A stretch of DNA of 49,279 bases, taken from assembly GCA_027023405.1 (NCBI GenBank), contig JALVVN010000028.1, forward strand, positions 1-49,279. Reading direction: 5' to 3'. The position numbers were made by a program, and so were the translations under genes. Under the pieces are notes generated by a model that saw only the letters and a program-made list of their open reading frames with translations, did no database searches and was not told the origin of the DNA. This stretch comes from Campylobacterales bacterium (GTDB lineage: Bacteria; Campylobacterota; Campylobacteria; Campylobacterales; QNZT01). Positions 2,999 to 38,433 of this stretch are shown piece by piece (position 1 is the first letter of the stretch; every line of letters begins with the position of its first letter).

Positions 2999-3023
2999 TG
3001 CTGTCTCCTTGTGATTGATGTGA

Positions 3024-3029
3024 ATGATA
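3024..3029 (-). promoter_or_regulatory. Putative -10 box (TATCAT) for the 53-aa peptide/YheT operon
   Basis: TATCAT on the minus strand sits about 25 bp upstream of the start codon, with the AAGGAG site between. No convincing -35 element is visible, which is common in Campylobacterota. Confidence 0.35.
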
Positions 3030-3111
3030 GCGCAAAAAGGATAAATAATTTCTCTCTTTTGTTAGAACTAGTGACAGGGTTATCTCTTTGGTGTAAGGAT
3101 TTGTTAGAGAT

Positions 3112-3637
3112 TTAACTGCCTATCAGTTCCAAACTCTTATCGATACTATCTTTCAAACAATATATGAAATTCTGTGATATCTTCTAAACTCATATTATTA
3201 CTTTTAAACCTATATAAAAGATTTTCTACATCATTTGAAATTTGACTGGGAGGGGATAATTCTATATCTACACCTTTGATATATCTTTCATCTAATCTAT
3301 ATGCTCCAATAGGTTTCGATACATATTCCGGTGCGACTTTTAGAGCATCTTCAAACATAATCGCATGAATATCTTTGATAAAACTACTATCGATTAAATG
3401 AGTTGGATTTTGTGCCTCACGAACAACTACATCATAAGATTTTGCAAAGCCTAATATAACAAGTTGCTCTCCAAGGGGCTTATGCCCAGCTGTATGCCCC
3501 AACTCTAGCAACTCTTTAGTTTCGCCAAAAGAGAGAGTAGTCCCCTCTATTGCATTTGAGTGATGAGTGATTGAAATACGAAGTTGTCTAAAAAGTTCTT
3601 CACGCTGCTTTAATGTTAATTTGTTAAGTTTATGCAC
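3112..3637 (-). pseudogene. Fic-family AMPylase, catalytic core deleted
   Basis: The 163-residue reading frame starts at a GTG behind GAGGAAAG. It matches the N-terminal half of a class II Fic protein: the inhibitory-helix motif SNAIEG (about residues 27-32, the S/TxxxE[G/N] type), the GETKELLE segment, and EFHILFER at the very end. In intact relatives EFHILFER runs straight into the catalytic HPFxDGNGR loop; here a TAG follows instead. Just downstream, in a shifted frame, LKDSIDKSLELIGS ends in TAA at 3112 and looks like a Fic C-terminal tail. I infer an internal deletion that removed the active site and shifted the frame. The remaining protein cannot AMPylate. Confidence 0.75.
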
Positions 3638-3638
3638 A

Positions 3639-3808
3639 CTATCTTTCCTCTATAAATTTAGCTAAATTAGCTCCTTTTGTTAATTTAGTTACATCTGTTT
3701 TACTATTTCTTTAAAAAAATAATTATTTTCTCTTATAATATTGCCATATTTTATACCAAAGAAATGTATCATCATAACTTTTTCACCTTTCTTAGCTTCA
3801 TTATACAT
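3639..3808 (-). pseudogene. Decayed small HTH-like gene upstream of the Fic remnant
   Basis: Two adjacent frames joined by a one-base shift read as one protein: MYNEAKKGEKVMMIHFFGIK and onward to KEIVKQ in the first frame, then DVTKLTKGANLAKFIEER in the second, stopping with TAG immediately before the Fic GTG. The combined sequence resembles small HTH-like proteins with an IHLFGIKY core and a final helix around KGxxLAKY. The N-terminus is also missing. Its position suggests it once formed a two-gene unit with fic. The family assignment is from memory of the motif and is tentative; the frameshift is seen directly. Confidence 0.5.
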
Positions 3809-3850
3809 TATTACTCAATGTTAATCCTAAGTCTTGTTCTCTCATTTTTC

Positions 3851-3886
3851 CCGTTGTCTCGGTAAGCGAAGCGTCGGAGACAACGG
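3851..3886. repeat. Perfect 10-bp inverted repeat (hairpin 1)
   Basis: CCGTTGTCTC and GAGACAACGG enclose a 16-nt loop. The stem is G+C rich in an otherwise AT-rich stretch. It is flanked by T's before it on the plus strand (A's after it on the minus strand), so it is not a canonical terminator for the minus-strand toxin gene. It may be a mobile-element or recombination end, or a transcript-stabilising structure. Confidence 0.6.
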
Positions 3887-3896
3887 TTGAAGATAG

Positions 3897-3925
3897 CCAA
3901 TAAATTGCCGTAGGTAATTTATTGG
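3897..3925. repeat. Perfect 10-bp inverted repeat (hairpin 2) at the toxin stop codon
   Basis: CCAATAAATT and AATTTATTGG flank a 9-nt loop, 10 bp from hairpin 1. The right arm contains the toxin's stop codon on the minus strand. The two hairpins together mark the boundary between the toxin-antitoxin module and the fic remnant. Confidence 0.6.
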
Positions 3926-4239
3926 TTACTCTGACTTGTTATACTCTTTTGATGGTTTTCAAGAAGTCTTTTGCCATGCACTACAGCTACCAATAAAATT
4001 TCCTGTGCATTTACTTTATAGATTAGTCTGTAGCTATAAACAAATATTTCACGAATCATTGGGTCGTTGAATTCTGGAACTTTTCTACCTAATTCCGAAA
4101 ATTCCTGTAGCATTTCTGCTTTTTCAAAAAATTTTGAAACAACCGATTTTGCGTAAATCGGAGAATCCTTTTTTATATATGTTGCGATTGATTCGATATC
4201 TTCAAGAGCCTCCTCTGACCACTTTAGAGTGAAAGCCAT
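3919..4239 (-). CDS. RelE/ParE-superfamily toxin
   Basis: The 106-residue protein has the ParE layout: the start FTLKWSEEALEDIESIATYI, the central FSELGRKVPEFND motif, an IREIFVYSYRLIYKV strand, and a VVHGKRLL strand near the C-terminus. ParE-type toxins poison gyrase and RelE-type toxins cleave mRNA on ribosomes; the R-P-spaced 'GRKVPE' core favours the ParE side. It overlaps the upstream antitoxin by 16 bp, the normal translational coupling of such pairs. The C-terminal tail (SITSQSNQ) runs into hairpin 2 and may be altered by it. Confidence 0.85.
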   Translation of the reverse strand: MAFTLKWSEEALEDIESIATYIKKDSPIYAKSVVSKFFEKAEMLQEFSELGRKVPEFNDPMIREIFVYSYRLIYKVNAQEILLVAVVHGKRLLENHQKSITSQSNQ

Positions 4240-4412
4240 TTAGCCATTCTTTGTTTTGCTTTTTCGTGTGAAGAAACTTCACCATTTTCAGCACGGCTTA
4301 TGCCATTTTTGATTTTTTCAACAACATAGAGATGATATTGTATATCTTCGTAAGTGCAGTCATCAGGAAGATTTTGAATTATTTTTTGCGCTTCTTGTTT
4401 TATGGCAACCAT
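4224..4412 (-). CDS. Antitoxin partner of the ParE-type toxin
   Basis: This is a 62-residue protein with a strong AAGGAGG site before its ATG. The segment CTYEDIQYHLYVVEKIKNGI followed by SSHEKAKQRMAKWL is characteristic of short antitoxins paired with RelE/ParE toxins: a helical DNA-binding/dimer part and a C-terminal toxin-wrapping helix. Gene order (antitoxin first, overlapping the toxin) fits. Autoregulation is likely, but I see no convincing operator. Confidence 0.82.
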   Translation of the reverse strand: MVAIKQEAQKIIQNLPDDCTYEDIQYHLYVVEKIKNGISRAENGEVSSHEKAKQRMAKWLSL

Positions 4413-4434
4413 ATTGTACCTCCTTTTTATTTGA

Positions 4435-4440
4435 ATTATA
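4435..4440 (-). promoter_or_regulatory. -10 box (TATAAT) of the toxin-antitoxin operon
   Basis: A perfect TATAAT on the minus strand lies 22 bp upstream of the antitoxin ATG, ahead of the AAGGAGG site. Confidence 0.5.
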
Positions 4441-4450
4441 ACATAGATGT

Positions 4451-5071
4451 CTAGAATACAAAAATCAATCCTATGATAGCAGGTATAATAAAAACCAATA
4501 TTAAGAGGACAACACCTTTGTTGAAACTCTTTTTTTCTTCTTCAACTTGCTTATAGTCATTAATAATTTTATTTTTAAAATCATAGTCCTTTTCCTTTTT
4601 AATATCTTCTATAACTTTGACTATACTCTTTTCTGTTGTGTTAAAAAAACTGTTTTTTGTATCAATTGCAAAGAAAAATTCACCAATTTTACTATTATTG
4701 TCATCATATAAAGTAAGACTTGTCCATGAAGCACTAATGAGTCTATGCCCTTTATGAATATGCTTTATTTCGGTAGAAACTTGTTTAATATCAAATTCTT
4801 TATCATCATTGATAATGATTTTATCTCTATACAATTTTAGAGATCTATACAAAGTCAAACTCTCAAAAACAGGTAAATACCAATATAAAATTACCAAAAT
4901 GATTGGAATAAATATAATACTCATCATTATGAAGCCAGGAGTATCATCATTAAACAGTGAGTTGCCTGCACCTACCAAATATAAAAAAAGAAATAGCTGT
5001 ATATTAAACAACAACAAAATATTTTTCTCAGGATCTTTTTTGTATTTAATTTCGTAGATGAGATTATTCAT
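4451..5071 (-). CDS. Orphan membrane protein, no recognised family
   Basis: The product is 206 residues from the ATG at 5071, which has AGGAAA in front; a longer in-frame start at 5107 has no ribosome site. There are two hydrophobic helices near the N-terminus (about residues 15-35 and 45-65), a polar Lys/Asp/Asn-rich middle, and one helix at the extreme C-terminus (FNKGVVLLILVFIIPAIIG). The middle could be a cytoplasmic PH-like or beta-rich domain (ISASWTSLTLYDDNNSKIGEF), but I cannot assign it. Codon use is strikingly AT-rich compared with the flanking core genes, which suggests acquisition by transfer. Confidence 0.6.
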   Translation of the reverse strand: MNNLIYEIKYKKDPEKNILLLFNIQLFLFLYLVGAGNSLFNDDTPGFIMMSIIFIPIILVILYWYLPVFESLTLYRSLKLYRDKIIINDDKEFDIKQVSTEIKHIHKGHRLISASWTSLTLYDDNNSKIGEFFFAIDTKNSFFNTTEKSIVKVIEDIKKEKDYDFKNKIINDYKQVEEEKKSFNKGVVLLILVFIIPAIIGLIFVF

Positions 5072-5181
5072 TATTTTCCTAGTATAACTATTTATACCCC
5101 CAAACATAATACCACAACAACACTACCAAATCACATTTATCTGAACACAAGAATTATACACATAGTCATAAAATTTTTAAA

Positions 5182-5206
5182 ATAATATTTCAAATTGAAA
5201 TATTAT
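5182..5206. repeat. 25-bp palindrome with 12-bp perfect arms
   Basis: ATAATATTTCAA and TTGAAATATTAT are separated by a single A. All-AT composition except for one G-C pair per arm rules out a strong terminator; the tight symmetry is what a dimeric repressor operator looks like. It lies 110 bp upstream of the orphan membrane gene start (minus strand). Confidence 0.55.
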
Positions 5207-5233
5207 CTCATATTAAGTCAAAAATATATTACC

Positions 5234-5280
5234 ATAACTCTACCAAAGGAGTTTTGCAGTTTATGCAATTTTGGAGTTAT
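5234..5280. repeat. Nested bulged hairpin
   Basis: ATAACT (5234-5239) pairs with AGTTAT (5275-5280), CCAAA (5243-5247) with TTTGG (5270-5274), and TTGCA (5254-5258) with TGCAA (5264-5268), leaving a GTTTA apical loop. The three colinear stems are unlikely by chance and suggest a structured RNA leader or a recombination site. Confidence 0.45.
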
Positions 5281-5431
5281 GTTTAGATAAATGACAAAAA
5301 ATCCATGATTCGTGCAAATGTTCATAGTATAGGATTTAAATAGTCTGAAATGCTAGTCATTGCCCCACTTGATGTAAATAATAGTCCAAAAAGGATAAAA
5401 TCTTTTCTTTTGAGCTGAAAGGGGTGGCGCG

Positions 5432-5851
5432 ATGTTGGAGTGTATCAATGAGACCGATATTTCTGTCGATCTCTCGCTTTTGGAGCGGATTGCTGAGGAT
5501 TTGAGCGATCGTGGCGTGGAGTTGAGCTTTGTCACGGATGAAGTGATGCAGGAGCTCAATCATGCGCATCGCGGTATCGATCGTCCGACCGATGTGCTCT
5601 CTTTTCCCGTCGATCCCTTTCCGATGGCACCGCTAGGTGAGATCGTCATCAATCTTGATCGTGCCAAAATAGATGCCAATCGGTTGGGGCATACGCTCGA
5701 TCAGGAGGTGGCGCTTCTCTTTATTCACGGGATGCTTCATCTGCTGGGGATGGATCATGAGATCGATGACGGAGAGATGCGAAAACGGGAGCGAGAATTG
5801 ATTTTAGAGTATGGTTTACCAGAGAGTTTGATAGTAAGGAGTGAGGGATGA
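5432..5851 (+). CDS. ybeY: Endoribonuclease YbeY
   Basis: The 139-residue protein has the hallmark zinc site HGMLHLLGMDHE (H99, H103, H109), preceded by the conserved PTDVLSFP loop near residue 52 and the GEIVIN strand. YbeY is a single-strand endoribonuclease needed for 16S rRNA 3'-end maturation and ribosome quality control. Length is normal. The stop codon overlaps the start of the antiporter gene (ATGA), so the two are co-translated. The ATG at 5432 has AAAGGGG upstream. Confidence 0.93.
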   Translation: MLECINETDISVDLSLLERIAEDLSDRGVELSFVTDEVMQELNHAHRGIDRPTDVLSFPVDPFPMAPLGEIVINLDRAKIDANRLGHTLDQEVALLFIHGMLHLLGMDHEIDDGEMRKRERELILEYGLPESLIVRSEG

Positions 5852-6786
5852 TTTGGGATTTTGTGATCTTTGCGGTGGCGATGTTTGCCTTGACCAAGGG
5901 AGCGGATTTTGTGATTGATGAGAGTGAGAAGATAGCGATTCATTACGGTATCTCTCAGTATGTCATCGGTGCGACGCTGGTAGCGCTGGGGACGAGTCTT
6001 CCAGAGATGGCATCGAGTATGATGGCGGCGTACGATGGGCGCAACGAAATGGCAGTCGCCAATGTGATTGGTAGCAATATCATCAATATCGCGCTGGTGC
6101 TGGGGATCGTTTTTGTGATCAGCAGTCGTATTATGCCTGATCGGGATATCTTCGGAAAGGACGGTGCATGGGGGATCTTTCCCGTGATGGTCTTTATCGT
6201 GATGGTGATCGATGGAAGCGTATCGCGGTTTGAGGGGTTTTTACTGTTGGTGATGATGGGCGCCTATATTCTCTTTTTGATCCAAAATGATGATGAGATT
6301 ATCGATCAAGTCGATGAGGATCTCTCCAAGGAGCCGTTTGCGTGGAAGCCGACGCTGTTGCTGTTGTTAGCCGGTTTTGTGTTGGTGATCGTGGGGGCAA
6401 ATTTTGCGGTGGATGCAGCGGGTAATATCGCTCGGGCGTTTGGTGTGAGCGAGTGGGTGATCGGTCTGTTGTTGGTGGCATTTGGTACGAGTCTGCCCGA
6501 ATTGATGGTCGCACTCTCCGCCGCCAAAAAGGGCAACGGCGATATGGTGCTTGGCGGGATCATCGGGAGCAATGTCTCAAACTTCACCGTTGTTTTGGGC
6601 GGATCGGCACTGATCCACCCTCTAGCGGTCGATCTTGCCAAAAATGCCTTTGATATCTTTAGTGTGTTGGCGATCACATTGATGCTCGTTTTTATCACCG
6701 CGAACAAACTCTACACCAAATCGGCAGGAATTGTGCTTCTGATTATGATGGCACTTGTGATAGAACATAGTGTGAATCAATTTTAG
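5848..6786 (+). CDS. CaCA-family calcium/sodium antiporter (YrbG type)
   Basis: The product is 312 residues and about ten membrane helices arranged as two inverted halves. Each half carries an alpha repeat: GATLVALGTSLPEMASS near residue 41 and LLVAFGTSLPELMVAL near residue 207, with a paired IGSNIINI / IGSNVSNF motif after each. The acidic residues in GTSLPE bind the cation. Such proteins export Ca2+ (or K+/Na+-linked Ca2+) across the inner membrane. The acidic linker near residue 150 (DDEIIDQVDED) is the cytoplasmic loop between the halves. It is coupled to ybeY upstream and lies 8 bp before the 885-aa gene. Confidence 0.9.
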   Translation: MIWDFVIFAVAMFALTKGADFVIDESEKIAIHYGISQYVIGATLVALGTSLPEMASSMMAAYDGRNEMAVANVIGSNIINIALVLGIVFVISSRIMPDRDIFGKDGAWGIFPVMVFIVMVIDGSVSRFEGFLLLVMMGAYILFLIQNDDEIIDQVDEDLSKEPFAWKPTLLLLLAGFVLVIVGANFAVDAAGNIARAFGVSEWVIGLLLVAFGTSLPELMVALSAAKKGNGDMVLGGIIGSNVSNFTVVLGGSALIHPLAVDLAKNAFDIFSVLAITLMLVFITANKLYTKSAGIVLLIMMALVIEHSVNQF

Positions 6787-30057: not shown

Positions 30058-31113
30058 TTGCAAAACAGAGTTGCTAAACGCAAAATTCTTTTTATTGTCA
30101 CACGCTCTGAAAACGGTGGTGCACAGCGTTGGGTCAAGGAGCAGATCGATATCGTAGGCGATCATTTCGAGACCCATATTGTGACGGATGAAGAGGGATG
30201 GCTGATTCAGCATGCGAAGATGGACGGCTATATGACCGATATGCGTATTCACCAACTCCACTCTTTCATGTTTTTGCTTCGCTTTGCCGACTATTTGAAA
30301 AAGCATCATATCGATTTGGTGGTAGCCGGTACGGCAAATGCTGGTGTGTATGGTCGTTTGGTACAACTTCTGTATCGTGTCAATGTACTCTATGTGAGTC
30401 ATGGATGGGCATCTATCTATAACGGTGGAAAGATGACATTTGTCTATACGACCGTTGAGAGAATGCTTTCAAAAGTGACCAAATCGGTGATGTGTGTCTC
30501 ACAATCCGATTATGACCGTGCAAAAAATGAGGTCAAGATTGAACCCCAAAAGCTTATATTTATGCGTAACAAATCACTACCGATGAAGCGTCGTCCAAAT
30601 ATCGGACAACTTACAGGAAGACCGAAGATCGTAAGTGTTGCGCGTTTTAAACATCCTAAGAGACAGGATCTCTTAATTGAGGCGGTGCGTGATATGGATG
30701 TCGATCTCTACCTTGTGGGAGATGGACCATCGCGAGAAGCAAATGAGCTAAAGGCGGGATCAAATGTATATTTTTTGGGTGAAATAGATGGGTTTGATGA
30801 GTTTTATAAGTATGATATCTTCGCTTTAATTTCAGATAGTGAGGGATTGCCGTTATCAGGCGTTGAGGCGATGGGAGTCGGATTGCCGTTGTTGTTGAGT
30901 GATGTGGGTGGGTGTCCGGAGCTCATTGAAGAGAATGGTTTAGTGGTAGAGAATAATGTTGAGGAGATACGAAAGGGACTGGAAGCTATTCTTGAAAATT
31001 ATGAAAAATTTGCCCATAACTCGATTAAGTTGTTTGATAGAGAGTACAATTTAAAAAGGCATAAAATGACCTATATCGACTACTATCAACGCTACATTCC
31101 ATTGGAGCGGTAG
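30058..31113 (+). CDS. GT4-family glycosyltransferase
   Basis: The product is 351 residues, start TTG with GGAGAAG upstream. The acceptor half opens with KILFIVTRSENGGAQRWV. The donor half shows VSVARFKHPKRQDLLIEAV (start near residue 195) and the E-x7-E motif in SDSEGLPLSGVEAMGVGLP near residue 260, so the enzyme looks active. GT4 enzymes use nucleotide or lipid-phosphate sugars with retention. It is 1 bp upstream of the UbiA gene's GTG, heading the operon; it may build the glycan that receives arabinose. The sugar specificity cannot be read from sequence. Confidence 0.88.
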   Translation: MQNRVAKRKILFIVTRSENGGAQRWVKEQIDIVGDHFETHIVTDEEGWLIQHAKMDGYMTDMRIHQLHSFMFLLRFADYLKKHHIDLVVAGTANAGVYGRLVQLLYRVNVLYVSHGWASIYNGGKMTFVYTTVERMLSKVTKSVMCVSQSDYDRAKNEVKIEPQKLIFMRNKSLPMKRRPNIGQLTGRPKIVSVARFKHPKRQDLLIEAVRDMDVDLYLVGDGPSREANELKAGSNVYFLGEIDGFDEFYKYDIFALISDSEGLPLSGVEAMGVGLPLLLSDVGGCPELIEENGLVVENNVEEIRKGLEAILENYEKFAHNSIKLFDREYNLKRHKMTYIDYYQRYIPLER

Positions 31114-31114
31114 G

Positions 31115-31984
31115 GTGGAAATTAAGGCGCTTCTTCAGTTGATGCGTCCGCATCAATATATCAAAAATCTTTTTATCTTTTTTCCACTCTTTTTTGCACT
31201 CAAGATAACTGATTTCGATGATCTGTGGCGCGCCTTTGTTGCCTTTGTTGCTTTTAGTCTGAGTGCCAGTGCGATCTATATTCTCAATGACTATTTTGAT
31301 ATCAAAGCGGATCAGATGCACCCTAAAAAGCGCTATCGCCCCTTGGCGAGTGGAGCGGTTAGTAAGCCACGCGCACTTCAGCTGATGGGGGTTTTGGCGG
31401 CAATCGGTATCATATTGATGGGGATGCTCTCATTACAAGCGCTACTCTTTTTACTTCTCTATATGGCGATGAACCTTGCCTACACGATCAAACTCAAACA
31501 TATTTCAATTATCGATATGGTTACTATTGCGATCGGGTTTGTATTACGACTCTTTGTCGGATCGGCGGTGACGGGAATTGTACTTTCGCAGTGGATTGTG
31601 ATTATGGTCTTTTTGTTGGCGCTCTTTTTGGCGCTTGCCAAACGGCGGGATGATGTGCTGATCTACCTCAAAGAGGGTACGAAAGCCAGAGCGGTGATAG
31701 AGAATTATAATTTGCAATTTTTGGATATTGCGATGTCGATTATGGCGTCGGTGGTGATCGTGACCTATATTTTGTATGTTACCTCATTCGAAGTGACAGC
31801 ACGATTTCATAGCCACTATCTCTATCTTACGGCACTTTTTGTTATTATAGGGGTTGTGCGTTATTTACAGATCGCCTTTGTTGATGAGCAGAGTGGTGCA
31901 CCGACCAAAGTGGTGCTCAAAGATCGTTTTATGCAGGCGATTATCGTCGGATGGATCGCCTCATTTGTGTGGATTTTGTACTGA
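31115..31984 (+). CDS. UbiA-type decaprenyl-phosphate phosphoribosyltransferase
   Basis: The product is 289 residues with about eight membrane helices, start GTG with GGAG upstream. The opening MRPHQYIKNLFIFFPLFFA, the aspartate motif ILNDYFDIKADQMHPKKRYRP and the second motif YTIKLKHISIIDM are those of the 5-phosphoribosyl-diphosphate:decaprenyl-phosphate transferases (mycobacterial Rv3806c type), not of quinone prenyltransferases. It would make polyprenyl-phosphoryl-5-phosphoribose. It is followed by gtrA, dprE1 and dprE2 with overlapping stops and starts. Confidence 0.88.
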   Translation: MEIKALLQLMRPHQYIKNLFIFFPLFFALKITDFDDLWRAFVAFVAFSLSASAIYILNDYFDIKADQMHPKKRYRPLASGAVSKPRALQLMGVLAAIGIILMGMLSLQALLFLLLYMAMNLAYTIKLKHISIIDMVTIAIGFVLRLFVGSAVTGIVLSQWIVIMVFLLALFLALAKRRDDVLIYLKEGTKARAVIENYNLQFLDIAMSIMASVVIVTYILYVTSFEVTARFHSHYLYLTALFVIIGVVRYLQIAFVDEQSGAPTKVVLKDRFMQAIIVGWIASFVWILY

Positions 31985-32379
31985 TGGTTATTCGTTATAT
32001 TCTCTTTGCACTCATTTCGACGGTGGCAAATTTGGGGTTTCAATTTTTGAGCTTTCAACTCTATGGCGGCTTTATGGCGATCTATGTCGCGATGGCGGTT
32101 GGAACGCTTGCCGGACTTGTGGTGAAGTATATTCTCGACAAGCGCTACATCTTTTACCATGAGACCCAAAGCAAAAAAGAGGATGCGCAGAAGTTTATGC
32201 TCTACTCTCTGATGGGAGTTTTTACGACTTTTATCTTTTGGGGTGTAGAGATCGGGTTTGACAAAGTGTTCGGCGGTGCGACGGCAAAGTATGTCGGCGG
32301 TTTTATCGGTTTGGCGATCGGGTATAGTATCAAATATTTTTTAGACAAGCGATTTGTCTTTGTGACCAAGGAGGCGTGA
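31984..32379 (+). CDS. GtrA-family membrane protein
   Basis: The product is 131 residues with four membrane helices, start ATG at 31984 overlapping the UbiA stop (TGATG). Typical GtrA features include FALISTVANLGFQFLSF and paired KYILDKRYIFY / KYFLDKRFVF ends in each half. GtrA proteins are thought to help move lipid-linked sugars across the membrane. In mycobacteria a GtrA protein (Rv3789) lies next to dprE1, and this gene occupies the equivalent place. Charged loops at the half ends are conserved. Confidence 0.85.
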   Translation: MVIRYILFALISTVANLGFQFLSFQLYGGFMAIYVAMAVGTLAGLVVKYILDKRYIFYHETQSKKEDAQKFMLYSLMGVFTTFIFWGVEIGFDKVFGGATAKYVGGFIGLAIGYSIKYFLDKRFVFVTKEA

Positions 32380-33677
32380 TGGCATATGAGAGTTGGGGGA
32401 TGTACCCCAAGATCCAATCAAAAGTAATAGCGTGTAGCACTTTCACACAGATAAAAGATCAGATAAACGCGTCATCAAGCCTGATTCCTTACGGCAATGG
32501 ACGAAGCTACGGTGATAGTGCTTTGAGTGAAAACCTATTGCCGATGCGTCGCTTTGATCGCTTTTTGAATTTTGATGAGAAGAGAGCTCTTTTGGAAGTT
32601 GAGTCGGGAGTGTTGTTGAGTGAAATTCTTGAGAGTTTTGTCCCTAGAGGCTACTTTCTCAAGGTGACACCGGGTACAAAGCTCATCACTGTCGGCGGTG
32701 CGATCGCCAGTGACATTCACGGGAAAAATCACCATGTTGAGGGGTGCTTTAGCGAGTGTGTCGAGTCCTTTGAGTTGATGCTTCCCAACGGTGAGATTGT
32801 GACCTGCTCCAAAACGCAAAATCGTGAACTCTTTTTAGCCACTTGCGGTGGTATGGGGCTGACGGGTGTGATCCTCAAAGCGTCGATCTACCTCAAAGAG
32901 ATCAACTCCCAATATATCGATCAGATTACCATCAAAAGTCGCAATCTCAAAGAGAGTTTTGAAGCCTTTGAGAAGTATAGCGACTACCCCTATTCGGTAG
33001 CATGGATCGACTGCTTGGCAAAGGGTGAGGATTTGGGACGATCGCTCTTGATGATGGGGGATTTTAGCCAAGACGGTGATCTCGATTATGTCGCCAAGCG
33101 TGGTCCGACGATTCCGTTTAATTTTCCCTCGTTTGCGCTCAATAACTGGAGTGTACGAGCCTTTAACTTTCTCTACTACAATCGTGTCAAAGAGAAAATC
33201 TCTAAACAAAAGGTAGGGATCGATAGCTTTTTCTATCCGCTAGATGCCATTTCGCACTGGAATCGAATTTACGGCAAAAACGGTTTTACACAGTATCAAT
33301 TTATCCTCCCAAAAGAGAGTAGTTATGAGGGGTTGCAAGAGATTTTGGGATTGATCGCTGAATCAGGTAAGGGGAGCTTTTTAGCCGTGCTCAAACTCTA
33401 CGGCAAAGCGAATGAAAACTACCTCTCATTTCCGATAGAGGGCTATTCACTAGCGCTTGATTTTAAGATCGAGCCTGATCTCTTTGCGCTATTAGATCGT
33501 TTGGATGAAGTGGTTGATCGACTGGGTGGGCGGATCTACTTGACCAAAGATGTGCGAGTGAGCAAAGAGGTGTTTGAGCGGGGATATCCGCAGATCGAGA
33601 AGTTTAGAAAATTGCGCAAAGAGCAGGGGATGCAAGAGAAGTTTCAATCCCTACAATCAAGGAGGCTTGGGTTATGA
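32379..33677 (+). CDS. dprE1: DprE1-type FAD-dependent decaprenylphosphoryl-ribose 2-oxidase
   Basis: The product is 432 residues from the ATG at 32379, which has AGGAGG upstream and overlaps the gtrA stop. The FAD domain shows PYGNGRSYGDSAL near residue 38, VTPGTKLITVGGAIASDIHGKNHH near residue 98 (the His cofactor contact and GKNHH motif of DprE1) and GMGLTGVIL. The C-terminal half ends in GGRIYLTKDVRVSKEVF and SRRLGL, as in mycobacterial DprE1. It oxidises the 2-OH of polyprenyl-phosphoribose. At the residue equivalent to the benzothiazinone-target Cys387, in the segment GYSLALDF, an alanine (A359) is present. Confidence 0.9.
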   Translation: MAYESWGMYPKIQSKVIACSTFTQIKDQINASSSLIPYGNGRSYGDSALSENLLPMRRFDRFLNFDEKRALLEVESGVLLSEILESFVPRGYFLKVTPGTKLITVGGAIASDIHGKNHHVEGCFSECVESFELMLPNGEIVTCSKTQNRELFLATCGGMGLTGVILKASIYLKEINSQYIDQITIKSRNLKESFEAFEKYSDYPYSVAWIDCLAKGEDLGRSLLMMGDFSQDGDLDYVAKRGPTIPFNFPSFALNNWSVRAFNFLYYNRVKEKISKQKVGIDSFFYPLDAISHWNRIYGKNGFTQYQFILPKESSYEGLQEILGLIAESGKGSFLAVLKLYGKANENYLSFPIEGYSLALDFKIEPDLFALLDRLDEVVDRLGGRIYLTKDVRVSKEVFERGYPQIEKFRKLRKEQGMQEKFQSLQSRRLGL

Positions 33678-34408
33678 GTGAAGTGTTGATTATCGGTGCG
33701 ACAAGTGATGTAGGGCGAGCGCTTGCAAGGCGTTATGCCAAAGCAGGATATGATGTCGTATTGACGGCTAGAGATGAAACAAAACTAAAAGCCGAAGCAG
33801 AGGATTTGTCACTGCGTTTTGGATCAATTCGCGTGACGAGCTATCCGCTTGATGTGCGTGCATTTGAGACACACCAAGACTTTGTAGAGAGCTTAGATCG
33901 GATGCCTGATGGTGTGATCGCGGTTGCGGGTTATTTGGGAGATCAGCAAAAGGCGCAACGAGAGTTTGAAGAGACAAAAGCGATCATCGAGACCAATTAT
34001 ACGGGCATTGTCTCACTTTTGGAAAAGTTTGCCGATCGTTTTGCGAAGCGACGATCGGGCTTTATCGTCGGGATTAGCTCCGTCGCCGGCGAGAGAGGGC
34101 GAAAATCAAACTACATCTACGGATCGGCAAAGGCAGGTTTTACGACCTATCTGTCGGGACTACGAAATCGACTCCACGATCTCAACATCCAAGTCCTAAG
34201 TGTGATCCCCGGTTTTATCGCGACAAAGATGACGGCAGGCATGGATCTCCCACCCCAACTCACCGCCCAACCAGAAGAGGTTGCCGAAGCGATTTTCCGC
34301 GCCCAACAAAAGGGAAGAGATATCCTCTACACCAAGTCGATCTGGAGAGTGATTATGGCGGTTATCCGAGCGATACCGGAGTGGCAGTTTAAGAAGATGA
34401 GTATTTAA
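33674..34408 (+). CDS. dprE2: DprE2-type SDR reductase
   Basis: The 244-residue short-chain dehydrogenase has IIGATSDVGRALARRY as glycine motif, then NYTGIVSLL and SSVAGERGRKSNYIYGSAKAG with the catalytic Ser-Tyr-Lys. It overlaps the dprE1 stop (ATGA), the same arrangement as Rv3790-Rv3791. It should reduce the 2-keto intermediate to the arabinose epimer, completing polyprenyl-phosphoryl-D-arabinofuranose. The C-terminal membrane-associating tail (RVIMAVIRAIPEWQFKK) resembles DprE2. It is the last gene before the MazEF insertion. Confidence 0.88.
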   Translation: MSEVLIIGATSDVGRALARRYAKAGYDVVLTARDETKLKAEAEDLSLRFGSIRVTSYPLDVRAFETHQDFVESLDRMPDGVIAVAGYLGDQQKAQREFEETKAIIETNYTGIVSLLEKFADRFAKRRSGFIVGISSVAGERGRKSNYIYGSAKAGFTTYLSGLRNRLHDLNIQVLSVIPGFIATKMTAGMDLPPQLTAQPEEVAEAIFRAQQKGRDILYTKSIWRVIMAVIRAIPEWQFKKMSI

Positions 34409-34422
34409 GGTGCCTTTTAGAT

Positions 34423-34463
34423 TTGACTAATGTGCAAAAATAGTGTATCATTATGTAGATACA
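34423..34463 (+). promoter_or_regulatory. MazEF promoter with overlapping operator
   Basis: TTGACT (34423-34428) and TATCAT (34446-34451) are spaced by exactly 17 bp, unlike most promoters here. The -10 is embedded in an inverted repeat: TGTATC (34444-34449) and GATACA (34458-34463). A repressor bound there would block RNA polymerase, fitting autorepression by the MazE-MazF complex. Confidence 0.6.
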
Positions 34464-34479
34464 TTTTAAAGGATTGCAG

Positions 34480-34716
34480 ATGACAATAGTGGTTAAAAAG
34501 TGGGGTAACTCTTTGGCGTTTAGAATACCCAAAGAGATTGCAAATGCTTTGTCTGTTGATAATAACTCACTTTTAGATTTGGAATTGACGAAAGATGGGA
34601 TACTTTTAAAGCCTAAAAAAGCGTCAAGACTCCAAGAGCTTGTTGCTCAAATAGATGAGACCAATATCCACAAAGAAGTTGATACAGGTAAAAAAGTGGG
34701 TCATGAAGAGTGGTAG
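34480..34716 (+). CDS. mazE: MazE-like antitoxin (AbrB/SpoVT fold)
   Basis: The 78-residue protein starts at ATG 34480, with AAAGGA at good spacing. TIVVKKWGNSLAFRIPKEIANAL is the swapped-hairpin DNA-binding domain typical of MazE, and the acidic tail LVAQIDETNIHKEV would wrap the toxin. It overlaps mazF by 14 bp. It has no relation to its arabinose neighbours. Confidence 0.9.
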   Translation: MTIVVKKWGNSLAFRIPKEIANALSVDNNSLLDLELTKDGILLKPKKASRLQELVAQIDETNIHKEVDTGKKVGHEEW

Positions 34717-35053
34717 CTATATTCCACAACGAGGCGATATTGTTTGGATAAACTTTGATCCACAAGCGGGACATGAACAAAAGGGAAAGAGACCTGCGTT
34801 GATACTCTCACCGAAAATTTATAATGAGAAAGCATCACTCTGTATCGCACTGCCGATTACCTCTAAAATAAAAGGATATCCATTTGAAATTCCTTTACCT
34901 CATGATATGCCTATTAACGGTGTTGTATTATCAGATCAAGTAAAAAGTTTTGATTTTAGAGTGAGAGAAGCGAAGTTTGTGTGTCGCACACCAAAAGATA
35001 TCATTAAAGAGGTACAAAAAAATATTCAAGCATTATTGATTGATACTATTTAA
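34703..35053 (+). CDS. mazF: MazF-like mRNA-interferase toxin
   Basis: The product is 116 residues from the ATG at 34703, inside the mazE coding end; a longer in-frame start at 34655 would overlap mazE deeply and is not needed. The family's start IPQRGDIVWINFDPQAGHEQKGKRPALILS, the ALPITSKIKGYPFE strand and VVLSDQVKSFDF all match. MazF cleaves mRNA at specific short sites. Its TAA abuts the convergent HAD gene's stop with no gap. Codon use is AT-richer than its neighbours, indicating insertion into the cassette. Confidence 0.9.
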   Translation: MKSGSYIPQRGDIVWINFDPQAGHEQKGKRPALILSPKIYNEKASLCIALPITSKIKGYPFEIPLPHDMPINGVVLSDQVKSFDFRVREAKFVCRTPKDIIKEVQKNIQALLIDTI

Positions 35054-35662
35054 TCAAGTTTCACTATTTGTAGGAAACTTTCGATAATAACCCTGCGTAG
35101 CAACTGCCAGCATCTCTGTGTCACCGCTACTGTCTCCGTAGGAATAGATCTCCGTGTAGTCGTTTAGGACGAGGTGTGCTCGGATGCGATTGACCTTTTC
35201 TTGACCGTGGCAGTTGGGAGTGGCGAAGCGACCGGTGAGTCTGTTTTGGGAGATCTCCATTTGTGTGGAGAGGAGTTCGATTCCCTCTTTTTGGCACCAC
35301 GGCTCAAGCCAGCATGCAAGTGATGCCGATACGACAACGATCCGATCGCCTTGTCGTTTATGGTATTGGAGTCGATCTTTTGCTTCTTTTTGCACGATAG
35401 GATCGATCTGCGTGAGTGCATAGGATTGTCCTAAGTCTCTAAACTTCTGTGCTTCATACCCTGTGAAGTAGTGCGATAGCAGTCGCATTTTTGCTTCATC
35501 GTTTGGGATAAGTTTGAGTTTGAAAGCGACAAGCATCGGTAGGTTTTTGAGTAGCCCGATATAAAACCGTTTGGCACCGACGGCGTATCGGATAAAATCA
35601 AAGAGAGTATCTTTTGTGGTGATAGTACCGTCAAAATCGAAGAGTGCAAGGTTTTTGCTCAT
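35054..35662 (-). CDS. HAD-IB family phosphatase
   Basis: The product is 202 residues from the ATG at 35662, which overlaps the stop of the upstream GT-C gene (ATGA). Motif I is LFDFDGTITTKDTLFDF (D9, D11), motif II is VVSAS near residue 112, and motif IV is YSYGDSSGDTEMLAVA near residue 180. HAD-IB enzymes dephosphorylate small phosphorylated metabolites or lipid-linked sugars. In the D-arabinose route a phosphatase must remove the 5-phosphate from polyprenyl-phosphoryl-5-phosphoribose. No other phosphatase is in the cassette, so this is the best candidate, by inference. Confidence 0.85.
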   Translation of the reverse strand: MSKNLALFDFDGTITTKDTLFDFIRYAVGAKRFYIGLLKNLPMLVAFKLKLIPNDEAKMRLLSHYFTGYEAQKFRDLGQSYALTQIDPIVQKEAKDRLQYHKRQGDRIVVVSASLACWLEPWCQKEGIELLSTQMEISQNRLTGRFATPNCHGQEKVNRIRAHLVLNDYTEIYSYGDSSGDTEMLAVATQGYYRKFPTNSET

Positions 35663-37206
35663 GGTTGATTCCAACTCACATTGACATCAGTAGGAAGAGA
35701 AAGAGCATCAAAGCTCTGTAGTGTTTGTCGTACCTCTTCTTCTTTTCCTTTTCTCGCCCAAAAGCAGACTTCATCGTCACCATTGAGGACATTGTGTTTG
35801 ATTTTCCAGGTAGCGAGTTTGGTGTAACCGGGGATCTTTTGATCGTTAAATCGGACTCTATATGCGATGATTAGATCGGCACCTTCAGATAGGATCAGTG
35901 CTTTTTTGCTTTTGTCGTTAAATTCACCGACTGCTTTGAGGTTAATGATACGAGGATTGCTAAGTCCGTGAATATCCAAAATTTTATCATTGCTGAAGTA
36001 AGGGATAGTACCGATATTATCGGTAGCAATATAGTAATGATGAAGCTTTTGGGCAAAAAGTCCCTCTTGTATTTGTTGCTCATAGACGGCGCGTGTAGAG
36101 AGGATAGATTTAACAGGTGAAAAGAAGATCTGTTTGAATCCCGCAATTGTCAAAATTGCAAGTAGAAGATAGCGATATTTTGGTGCAATTTGGAAGCGGT
36201 AGAGTGCTAAAATGAGGTTGAGTACACCCCAAAATACAAGATAAGCTTCATAGCGGTAGAGCCAGCCTACTTTGGCAAAGGCAAGATGCACCAAAAAGGT
36301 TATGAGATAAATCGTTGTATTGAGCTGAAGAAGTCTATCTTCCCGTTTTTTAGAGAGATATAATAGTGTGCCGTTGAGTAGTAGTAGGGCAATGATATGT
36401 GCATAAGAGATATTGGAGATAAATTGATCAAAATGTCCCGCACTTCCTACGCTTTTGGCGCTAATAGAGGTGGGGAGAAATCCCAAATGAAAACTCTCTT
36501 CACTCCAAATGCCAAAGAGTGCAATGAGAATAAGACTAGAGAAAACCAGCACAATAGAAAAGCGCCATGCATGCAGATAATAGGTCAATACCATTGCAGT
36601 CGCTATAATCAAAGCTATATCTTCATATCGTACTGCAACAATGAGTGGAGCGAGTAGAAGCATCCTTCTTTGTGGAAATGTTGAGACTTTGGAAGGGTTG
36701 GGTTTGTCTTGAATTAAGAGAAAGAGATTGTACAAAAAGAGTGTGATGAGCATAATTTGTAATGAATGTTCCAGTCCACCGAATGTCAGCGCTAAAAAGG
36801 GGGTGATCGCAATCAAAAAGAGTGCGTAGATAAAATGGAGTTTATCATCACTAAATCGTTGAATGATTTTAAAGAGTATGATGATGGTAACGATTTGTGG
36901 AATGAGGTTTAAGAGTAAGGATGCGAGAGGGAAATAACTCTCTCCCAAAAGTGCATAGAGCGGTGCTATGAGAAAAAGCCAAAGAGGTGATGAGGAGACA
37001 GAGGCGTAGCTGTAGCCGTCGATGCTCAGTATTCCCTCCTGCGCGAGATGTTTTGCCATCGCCCAATGGATATAGGGACCGTGAATGGCAAAGGTCAAAT
37101 GCCCTTGTGTTAAGTAGAGGGAGAGTGTAAAAGCCACAGCGGTTGCCATGAGTAACAAAGCGATTGAGATGTAAAGATGGTTGTGAATAGTGTGTCTATT
37201 TTGCAT
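35659..37206 (-). CDS. GT-C-type membrane glycosyltransferase (candidate D-arabinosyltransferase)
   Basis: The product is 515 residues from the ATG at 37206; a start at 37215 is also possible and the far upstream one at 37296 seems too early. It has about twelve membrane helices and a C-terminal periplasmic part. The first periplasmic loop (HGPYIHWAMAKHLAQEGILSIDGYSYASVSSSPLW) and the GTIPYFSNDKILDIHGLSNP motif near the C-terminus are those of lipid-phosphate-sugar-using GT-C enzymes. It overlaps the HAD gene. Given the neighbouring genes it most likely uses polyprenyl-phosphoryl-D-arabinofuranose; the acceptor is unknown. Confidence 0.75.
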   Translation of the reverse strand: MQNRHTIHNHLYISIALLLMATAVAFTLSLYLTQGHLTFAIHGPYIHWAMAKHLAQEGILSIDGYSYASVSSSPLWLFLIAPLYALLGESYFPLASLLLNLIPQIVTIIILFKIIQRFSDDKLHFIYALFLIAITPFLALTFGGLEHSLQIMLITLFLYNLFLLIQDKPNPSKVSTFPQRRMLLLAPLIVAVRYEDIALIIATAMVLTYYLHAWRFSIVLVFSSLILIALFGIWSEESFHLGFLPTSISAKSVGSAGHFDQFISNISYAHIIALLLLNGTLLYLSKKREDRLLQLNTTIYLITFLVHLAFAKVGWLYRYEAYLVFWGVLNLILALYRFQIAPKYRYLLLAILTIAGFKQIFFSPVKSILSTRAVYEQQIQEGLFAQKLHHYYIATDNIGTIPYFSNDKILDIHGLSNPRIINLKAVGEFNDKSKKALILSEGADLIIAYRVRFNDQKIPGYTKLATWKIKHNVLNGDDEVCFWARKGKEEEVRQTLQSFDALSLPTDVNVSWNQP

Positions 37207-37312
37207 GGGGAGCATTGTAGCGAAGATAAGATGTTTTGTCACGAAAATAGAAGTTATAATCATAAAAAAATTTTTGAGTGTGCTTTGTCGTAACAAATGG
37301 CAGAGTTTGTGC

Positions 37313-37347: not shown

Positions 37348-38433
37348 TTGCAAAAAAAGAAAATTCTATTTATATTACCCTCTCTTTTTGGTGGCGGTGC
37401 GGAACGCGTGGTATTGACTCTACTACACAATTTGGATCGGAATCGATTTATTCCAATGTTAGCACTTGTTAAACGAGAGGGAAAATATCTCAAAGATGTG
37501 CCCGAAGATGTGGAGCTTATTGATCTGCAAGTCACACAGGCGCGTTATGCACTTTTTAAAATTATAAAGCTTCTTAAAAAAGAGCGTCCTGATCTGCTTT
37601 TTACCTCCTTGGCGCATCTGAATCTTCTCATCGCACTGATTCGACCTCTCTTTCCCAAATCGATCCGTTTTATTGCGAGAGAATCCAATACAGTCAGTGA
37701 AAATAACAAACGAGATAAATATCCCCGTATCAATGCACTGTTGTATAAGAGAGTCTATAACAATTACGATGCGATTGTTACACAGGCAAAGGCGATGCGC
37801 GACGATTTGGAGGAAAATTACGCTATCTCTCCTGAGAAGATGCACACGATTCACAATCCCGTAGATATCGAAGCGATTAGAGAAAAGACCTCTTTGGGGA
37901 GCGCCGATCTGCCGCAAGATAAATGCAATCTCTTGGCAGTAGGGCGCTTGAGCGATCAAAAGGGGTTTGATATGCTTCTGCGTATTGTTGCGCGATTGGA
38001 TGCGCGATACTATTTGACGATTTTGGGCGAGGGGGAAAAAGAGGAGGAGCTTAAAGCGCAGATTAAAGCACTCAAACTAGAAGATCGTGTGCGTCTCTTT
38101 GGCTTTTGTGACAATCCTTATCCTTATATGAAATCGGCTGATCTATTGGTCTTAAGTTCCCGCTACGAGGGATTGCCCAATGTCGTTCTCGAAGCCAATA
38201 GTCTCGGTACACCGGTGGTTGCCTTTGATTCGTCCGGCGGAACGGGGGAGATTGTCAAAGATGGATTAAACGGTTATCTTGTCAAAGCGTTTGATGAGGA
38301 GGCATTTGCTAGAGCGATTGAAAAAGCTTGCAAAGAGGGGTTTGATGCAAGAGAGATTGAGAACTATATTGAGGAGAATTTTTCAGTCAAAAAGATCATA
38401 CAATTGTATGAGAAGCTCTTTAGCCGTAATTAA
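37348..38433 (+). CDS. GT4-family glycosyltransferase (second)
   Basis: The product is 361 residues, start TTG with AAAGGAG upstream. KILFILPSLFGGGAERVVLT is the usual opening; the donor half has LLAVGRLSDQKGFDMLLRIV near residue 195 and SSRYEGLPNVVLEANSLGTPVV with an E-x7-E motif near residue 272. It belongs with GT4 enzymes that build LPS, capsule or O-antigen chains. It is transcribed away from the GT-C gene and flanks the arabinose cassette on the right, so it probably serves the same glycan. Confidence 0.88.
   Translation: MQKKKILFILPSLFGGGAERVVLTLLHNLDRNRFIPMLALVKREGKYLKDVPEDVELIDLQVTQARYALFKIIKLLKKERPDLLFTSLAHLNLLIALIRPLFPKSIRFIARESNTVSENNKRDKYPRINALLYKRVYNNYDAIVTQAKAMRDDLEENYAISPEKMHTIHNPVDIEAIREKTSLGSADLPQDKCNLLAVGRLSDQKGFDMLLRIVARLDARYYLTILGEGEKEEELKAQIKALKLEDRVRLFGFCDNPYPYMKSADLLVLSSRYEGLPNVVLEANSLGTPVVAFDSSGGTGEIVKDGLNGYLVKAFDEEAFARAIEKACKEGFDAREIENYIEENFSVKKIIQLYEKLFSRN

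Follow-up and report, generated by a model that had tools for sequence, protein, structure and literature searches.

Three-component systems that add pentofuranoses have been described in Citrobacter youngae O1 and O2, together with arabinofuranose (Araf) variants that carry DprE1 and DprE2 (Kelly et al. 2024, PMC11127046). DprE1/E2 homologues occur in the systems of the Araf-containing glycans surveyed there (PMC11127046), and TfpW of Pseudomonas aeruginosa adds D-arabinofuranose (D-Araf) to pilin (PMC11841053). In mycobacteria, the decaprenylphosphoryl arabinose (DPA) pathway comprises Rv3806c, Rv3807c, Rv3790/Rv3791, Rv3789 and the transferase AftB. Tuberculosis bacteria need its lipid-linked sugar for cell-wall synthesis, and DprE1 and DprE2 are tuberculosis drug targets. 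The DNA analysed here, called the window, is a stretch of 49,279 nucleotides from a Campylobacterales bacterium (assembly GCA_027023405.1, contig JALVVN010000028.1), whose draft genome of 2.03 Mb is 99.9% complete. A ten-gene block on this contig (C28), flanked by uvrA and the gene for the ATP synthase a-subunit (Table 1), is most probably, judging by its gene families, a D-Araf donor cassette of the three-component extracytoplasmic type, the donor being flipped and used in the periplasm. The kind of system is already known, and the window holds a variant of the published kind. New here are the distribution in Campylobacterota, the exchange of the GT-C glycosyltransferase, an AftB-like GT-C with His-Gly at the catalytic position, and a second module with UbiA, HAD and a GalE-like epimerase in family group f2. 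The mycobacterial arabinose-donor pathway is thereby placed in several Campylobacterota families.

The window shares with the mycobacterial pathway the protein families for phosphoribosyl transfer, epimerisation and the candidate flippase, the order GtrA-DprE1-DprE2, which is that of Rv3789-Rv3790-Rv3791, and a GT-C of AftB-like type close to the genes for the donor. It differs in having a HAD phosphatase and not the unrelated Rv3807c, in the lipid, which is probably undecaprenyl phosphate, in its single GT-C with His-Gly for Asp-Asp, and in an Ala for Cys in DprE1. UbiA and a HAD phosphatase, a small membrane protein as flippase candidate, a GT-C and an epimerase that sets the pentose are common to the window and the three-component systems. 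However, the HAD of the window is a separate gene and not fused to UbiA, the flippase candidate is of the GtrA type and not ArnE/EmrE-like as in C. youngae, and the GT-C is AftB-like. With the P. aeruginosa group IV pilin system it shares the proposal that a Gram-negative bacterium synthesises a D-Araf donor with UbiA/DprE1/DprE2-type enzymes (PMC11127046, PMC11841053). The acceptor there is pilin and the GT-C is TfpW, whereas none of the genes adjoining the window's cassette was recognised as a pilin gene.

A sequence-only reading of this DNA had proposed a complete D-Araf donor cassette, formed by UbiA, GtrA, DprE1 and DprE2 with a HAD phosphatase, a GT-C and two GT4 enzymes around them. Gene calls and family models placed every one of these genes where it had been reported, and UbiA, DprE1, DprE2 and HAD had every catalytic motif. 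With NF008977, the model for decaprenyl-phosphate phosphoribosyltransferase, UbiA reached 227 bits (E 3e-67), just below the cut-off of 234, versus 44 bits with quinone UbiA; its best solved relative was the mycobacterial Rv3806c-type enzyme 8j8j (E 4.9e-38), and the motifs NDxxDxxxDxxHPxKxxRP and KRRDD were retained. It is thus of the phosphoribosyltransferase kind, as had been claimed, and not a quinone enzyme. DprE1 reached 384 bits (E 1e-114) with the DprE1 model NF053785 versus 70 bits with lactone oxidases, aligned over almost its full length with solved DprE1 structures (E 2.7e-73 for 4aut) and retained HGKNHH and the catalytic Lys region (TKD). In its sequence GYSLALDF an Ala stands at the position of the Cys targeted by benzothiazinones in mycobacteria, and the same was found in all 13 other loci compared; these DprE1 enzymes are therefore probably insensitive to the covalent drugs. 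DprE2 retained GATSDVG and the S-Y-K residues; the model NF005489, which it matched above the cut-off, is that of an uncharacterised short-chain dehydrogenase/reductase (SDR). GtrA (NF037976, PF04138) and HAD both passed their model cut-offs. Chance as an explanation for the family matches is excluded by the scores.

UbiA belongs to the same superfamily as quinone and aromatic prenyltransferases, and DprE1 to that of other flavin adenine dinucleotide (FAD) oxidases, so that the cassette could be a coincidence of unrelated enzymes. The wide separation of the scores, the synteny conserved across phyla and the presence of a separate UbiA-superfamily gene on contig C40, judged from its sequence to be quinone-type, speak against such a coincidence. 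In the DprE1 tree, the window's copy lay inside the DprE1 family; its branch, supported at 99%, consisted almost wholly of Campylobacterota and was far from the sampled Actinobacteria (two sequences). On the scores and this tree the reading was rejected, its likelihood being negligible.

The 5'-phosphatase step was assigned via synteny and fusion. HAD retained the motifs DxDGT, S and GDSxGD. HAD stood as a gene of its own, of the type seen in the window, in 29 of 79 UbiA loci, in Campylobacterota and several Bacteroidota, while 33 of the 79 had a UbiA with an N-terminal extension of at least 160 residues; both occurred together in one locus only. The extension was a HAD domain by PF12710 in all four loci tested. 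ORF15 of C. youngae is such a fused UbiA-HAD, whose HAD part has been demonstrated to cleave the 5'-phosphate from ribose (PMC11127046). Because of this synteny and the fusion to UbiA elsewhere, the window's HAD is likely the 5'-phosphatase, in place of the mycobacterial Rv3807c.

The following pathway can be proposed on the basis of the enzyme families, their intact active sites, the structure of the operon and the conserved gene order. UbiA would join phosphoribosyl pyrophosphate and a polyprenyl phosphate, probably undecaprenyl phosphate, to polyprenyl-P-ribose-5-P, from which HAD would remove the 5'-phosphate. DprE1 would then oxidise and DprE2 re-reduce C2', giving polyprenyl-P-D-Araf, and GtrA would help to move this product across the inner membrane. 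A periplasmic GT-C enzyme would then transfer the sugar to a glycan or glycoprotein acceptor, to whose assembly the flanking GT4 enzymes would contribute. The obvious choice for this step is the neighbouring AftB-like GT-C; with its His-Gly, either it would be impaired or another GT-C would carry out the transfer.

The GT-C of the window had no match in Pfam, NCBIfam or single-sequence PDB searches, AftB included. No relative was found in 396 other Campylobacterota genomes or in viral contigs, and 399 Pseudomonadota genomes gave one weak match with 23% identity. The relatives found here were in Acidobacteriota, where one lies in a run with UbiA and a DUF362-like gene (judged from sequence; L180) and another adjoins a UbiA (L195). 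A profile built from 26 members of the GT-C family, searched against 177,635 distinct PDB sequences, had AftB as its sole match (E 6.2e-19). Without the distant members the value was E 1.9e-6, and the match is therefore not dependent on them. The AlphaFold2 model from the 26-row alignment had a predicted local distance difference test (pLDDT) score of 89 and a predicted template modelling (pTM) score of 0.89; it was used instead of a single-sequence model with a pLDDT of 44, which was discarded. The best fold match of the model in the PDB was AftB with bound donor analogue (9dlh, TM score 0.53). By profile and model, the GT-C is AftB-like with a GT-CA fold.

In AftB, D62 of the DD motif is essential, as D62A abolishes the activity, and E172, R221 and R372 are involved in donor binding or stabilisation (PMC12041299). 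The GT-C retained the donor-binding Glu and two Arg (E176, R223 and R348) as well as C-terminal DNIG and GL motifs, and its frame had no stop or frameshift. E176 and R223 aligned with the region of E172 and R221 of AftB; R348 probably corresponds to R372, judging by the sequences. No other part of the locus deviates from its family at a catalytic position; the deviation in the GT-C is described with the other objections below.

Several points weigh against the reading of the block as a D-Araf donor cassette with periplasmic transfer. All 29 GT-C relatives have the DD motif, at a site in the first juxtamembrane helix where the catalytic D62 of AftB lies, but the window reads His72-Gly73 (codons CAC GGT). 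The GT-C and HAD genes run in the opposite direction, and a toxin-antitoxin pair separates them from DprE2. DprE1 and DprE2 missed the curated cut-offs (384 against 500 and 182 against 250 bits), which appear to have been set for the mycobacterial enzymes. GtrA is no more than a candidate flippase. Arabinosyl transfer by the window's GT-C is doubtful because His-Gly replaces the catalytic Asp-Asp of its family. The interpretation given in the sequence-only reading thus held up in part: the donor pathway is supported by the families and active sites, whereas the step from donor to a D-Araf-containing surface glycan was not secured.

The exchange of DD for HG may mean that the donor pathway is intact and arabinosylation has been lost or rerouted, the adjacent GT-C being dead and the donor unused or used by another GT-C. 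We regard this as a serious possibility, though somewhat short of even chances. The invariance of DD in the relatives and the position of the essential D62 within the motif are in line with it; moreover, neither codon is one for Asp, so that one sequencing error would not account for His-Gly. The remainder of the protein is nevertheless well kept (Glu176, Arg223, Arg348, DNIG, GL) and its frame is intact, which argues against long decay. For a rerouting, two PMT_2 (PMT-family) GT-C genes exist at C12:43771-46967 and could be the users of the donor, but they lie beside PAP2-type and GT2 genes (judged from sequence), which suggests a different donor system.

It was considered unlikely that the GT-C is active by an altered AftB-like mechanism, with His72 or some other group serving as a non-canonical catalytic residue in place of Asp. 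Such an enzyme would fit the change of the DD pair alone, with the donor-binding residues kept, and the confident folding of the model. However, it has no precedent among the 29 relatives, no close homologue with H-G was found either there or in the 396 other Campylobacterota, and the loss of AftB activity in D62A stands against it. Being related to AftB and carrying His-Gly in place of the catalytic motif, the GT-C offers a ready-made test of whether this aspartate is indispensable.

DprE1 was present in 18 of the 396 other Campylobacterota genomes, in a patchy pattern over 10 other genera; 17 of these proteins matched along their full length at 62-72% identity and one was more distant. No close DprE1 was found among 21 genomes of the host's own family. 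At least 585 DprE1 relatives were present in GTDB contigs, and the best 80 of these covered many phyla. The occurrence of the cassette outside Actinobacteria, to which interest had been attached, was thus borne out, but its novelty was not, given these relatives and the published systems (PMC11127046). Plasmid DprE1 sequences, mostly of Rhizobium, all had less than 60% identity, and therefore gave no plasmid source for the window's copy. In three genomes from the host's family, the genes leading up to atpB encode an ABC-transporter permease and then a DUF2400-like protein (names judged from sequence), whereas the arabinose block of the window lies directly before atpB; a genome of the same genus (L206) has atpB and no block at that site. 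This comparison of the atpB flanks and the patchy distribution suggest a lineage-specific acquisition of the block. Campylobacterota-type cassettes or branch members were also seen in three metagenome-assembled genomes from other phyla, named Desulfamplus, Cyclobacteriaceae and Bathymodiolus methanotrophic symbiont (L044, L049 and L050), which may represent transfer or mis-binned contigs. One Campylobacterota genome (G283) had two UbiA-GtrA-DprE1-DprE2 cassettes with differing neighbours (L126 and L128). A literature search on arabinofuranose in Campylobacterota gave nothing relevant.

The usual gene order in Campylobacterota was UbiA-GtrA-DprE1-DprE2, often followed by one large membrane-protein gene and then HAD, so that UbiA-GtrA-DprE1-DprE2 forms the core and most loci have a separate HAD in addition. 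Conserved synteny of the cassette was also found in diverse phyla. In twelve loci the slot between DprE2 and HAD held a GT-C of the PMT_2 type, some 490 residues long, these proteins being mutually related. The membrane proteins in the slot of other loci had no detectable relation to the PMT_2 type or to the window's GT-C, and some of them had no Pfam match at all. Judged by this synteny, the core behaves as a module open to exchange, which occurs sporadically in Campylobacterota, paired with different, unrelated GT-C families; the GT-C partner of the donor core changes between lineages. That the cassette is one of several such pentofuranose modules and that, in addition, its orphan AftB-like GT-C works without the Asp regarded as essential for this fold, with His instead, seems quite unlikely.

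A phosphoribosyltransferase-type UbiA was found in 32 of the 397 Campylobacterota genomes, and 19 of these, the window's included, also had DprE1. The remaining 13 belonged almost all to f2. Gene-by-gene inspection of f2 loci showed UbiA followed by large membrane proteins, which are candidate GT-C enzymes, and by an ArnE/F-like flippase and a GalE-like epimerase; most of these loci also had HAD, and DprE1/E2 were absent from them. This is the layout of the xylofuranose system of C. youngae O2. In eight of ten complete f2 UbiA genes examined (L215, L216, L217, L220, L221, L222, L224 and L225), one conserved site held an uninterrupted run of G or C, 9-14 bases long, and in six of these eight the frame was broken at the run. 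From their sequences the f2 UbiA genes look phase-variable and are candidates for phase variation, unless the long runs contain assembly errors. They point to pentofuranose decoration that can be switched on and off in a further family of Campylobacterota. The window's own cassette had no such run.

These modules bear on a further alternative, that the final sugar of the window is ribofuranose or another pentofuranose and its DprE1/E2 homologues differ in specificity. Modules with UbiA and HAD but without DprE do carry a different epimerase, and the GT-C studied in PMC11127046 was promiscuous for the donor. However, DprE1 and DprE2 are both present in the window, adjacent and intact, and such homologues accompanied Araf in the glycans surveyed (PMC11127046). 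A sugar other than D-Araf is thus very unlikely, and D-Araf is retained as the probable product.

Table 1. Genes of the block in the window, with positions, strands and basis of assignment.
Feature	Position	Strand	Basis
GT4-family glycosyltransferase, probable acceptor-glycan enzyme	30058..31113	+	PF00534/PF13692; 1 bp before UbiA
UbiA-superfamily polyprenyl-phosphate phosphoribosyltransferase (putative decaprenylphosphoryl-phosphoribose [DPPR] synthase, Rv3806c type)	31115..31984	+	NF008977 227 bits; PDB 8j8j E 4.9e-38
GtrA-family membrane protein, candidate flippase for lipid-linked sugar	31951..32379	+	NF037976 168 bits, above cut-off; PF04138
DprE1-type FAD oxidase (predicted 2'-oxidation of polyprenyl-P-ribose)	32376..33677	+	NF053785 384 bits; PDB 4aut E 2.7e-73
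DprE2-type SDR (predicted 2'-keto reduction to the arabino form)	33674..34408	+	NF053786 182 bits; NF005489 347 bits, above cut-off
MazE-like antitoxin, outside pathway	34474..34716	+	PF04014 E 1.3e-11
MazF-like toxin, outside pathway	34655..35053	+	NF007386 126.8 bits, above cut-off
HAD-IB phosphatase, candidate 5'-phosphatase for polyprenyl-P-ribose-5-P	35054..35674	-	PF12710 E 2e-39; TIGR01490 above cut-off
GT-C glycosyltransferase, AftB-like (GT-CA fold)	35659..37296	-	family profile vs PDB; AlphaFold2 model
GT4-family glycosyltransferase, PglJ-like	37348..38433	+	PF00534 E 3.8e-38; NF050063 165 bits, below cut-off

The plus-strand genes from the first GT4 to DprE2 are separated by 1 bp or overlap shortly, as in a translationally coupled operon. 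An in-frame ATG of GtrA at 31984 overlaps the stop of UbiA, and the likely start of HAD, ATG 35662, overlaps the stop of the GT-C. For the GT-C itself a start at 37206, an internal ATG at residue 31 of the longest open reading frame and the end point of the sequence-only reading, is more likely than 37296. The flanking GT4 at 30058-31113 matched no counterpart in the other cassette loci. The G+C content was about 41-46% in the block and 48-50% just upstream.

The MazE/MazF pair (34474-35053), which the sequence-only reading did not name, lies inside the block and separates DprE2 from HAD; in a relative, uvrA likewise has a MazF-like gene next to it (L208 7634-7960). At window positions 3000-6000 the G+C content dipped to 31-35%, and a gene for a small membrane protein is located there (4451-5107, minus strand). 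Further along contig C28, at about 61.2-63.3 kb (L143 11887-13971), a protein of 694 residues is encoded that combines an FAD-binding oxidase part with a C-terminal part resembling a methyltransferase; its likeness to DprE1 is distant and confined to the FAD domain.

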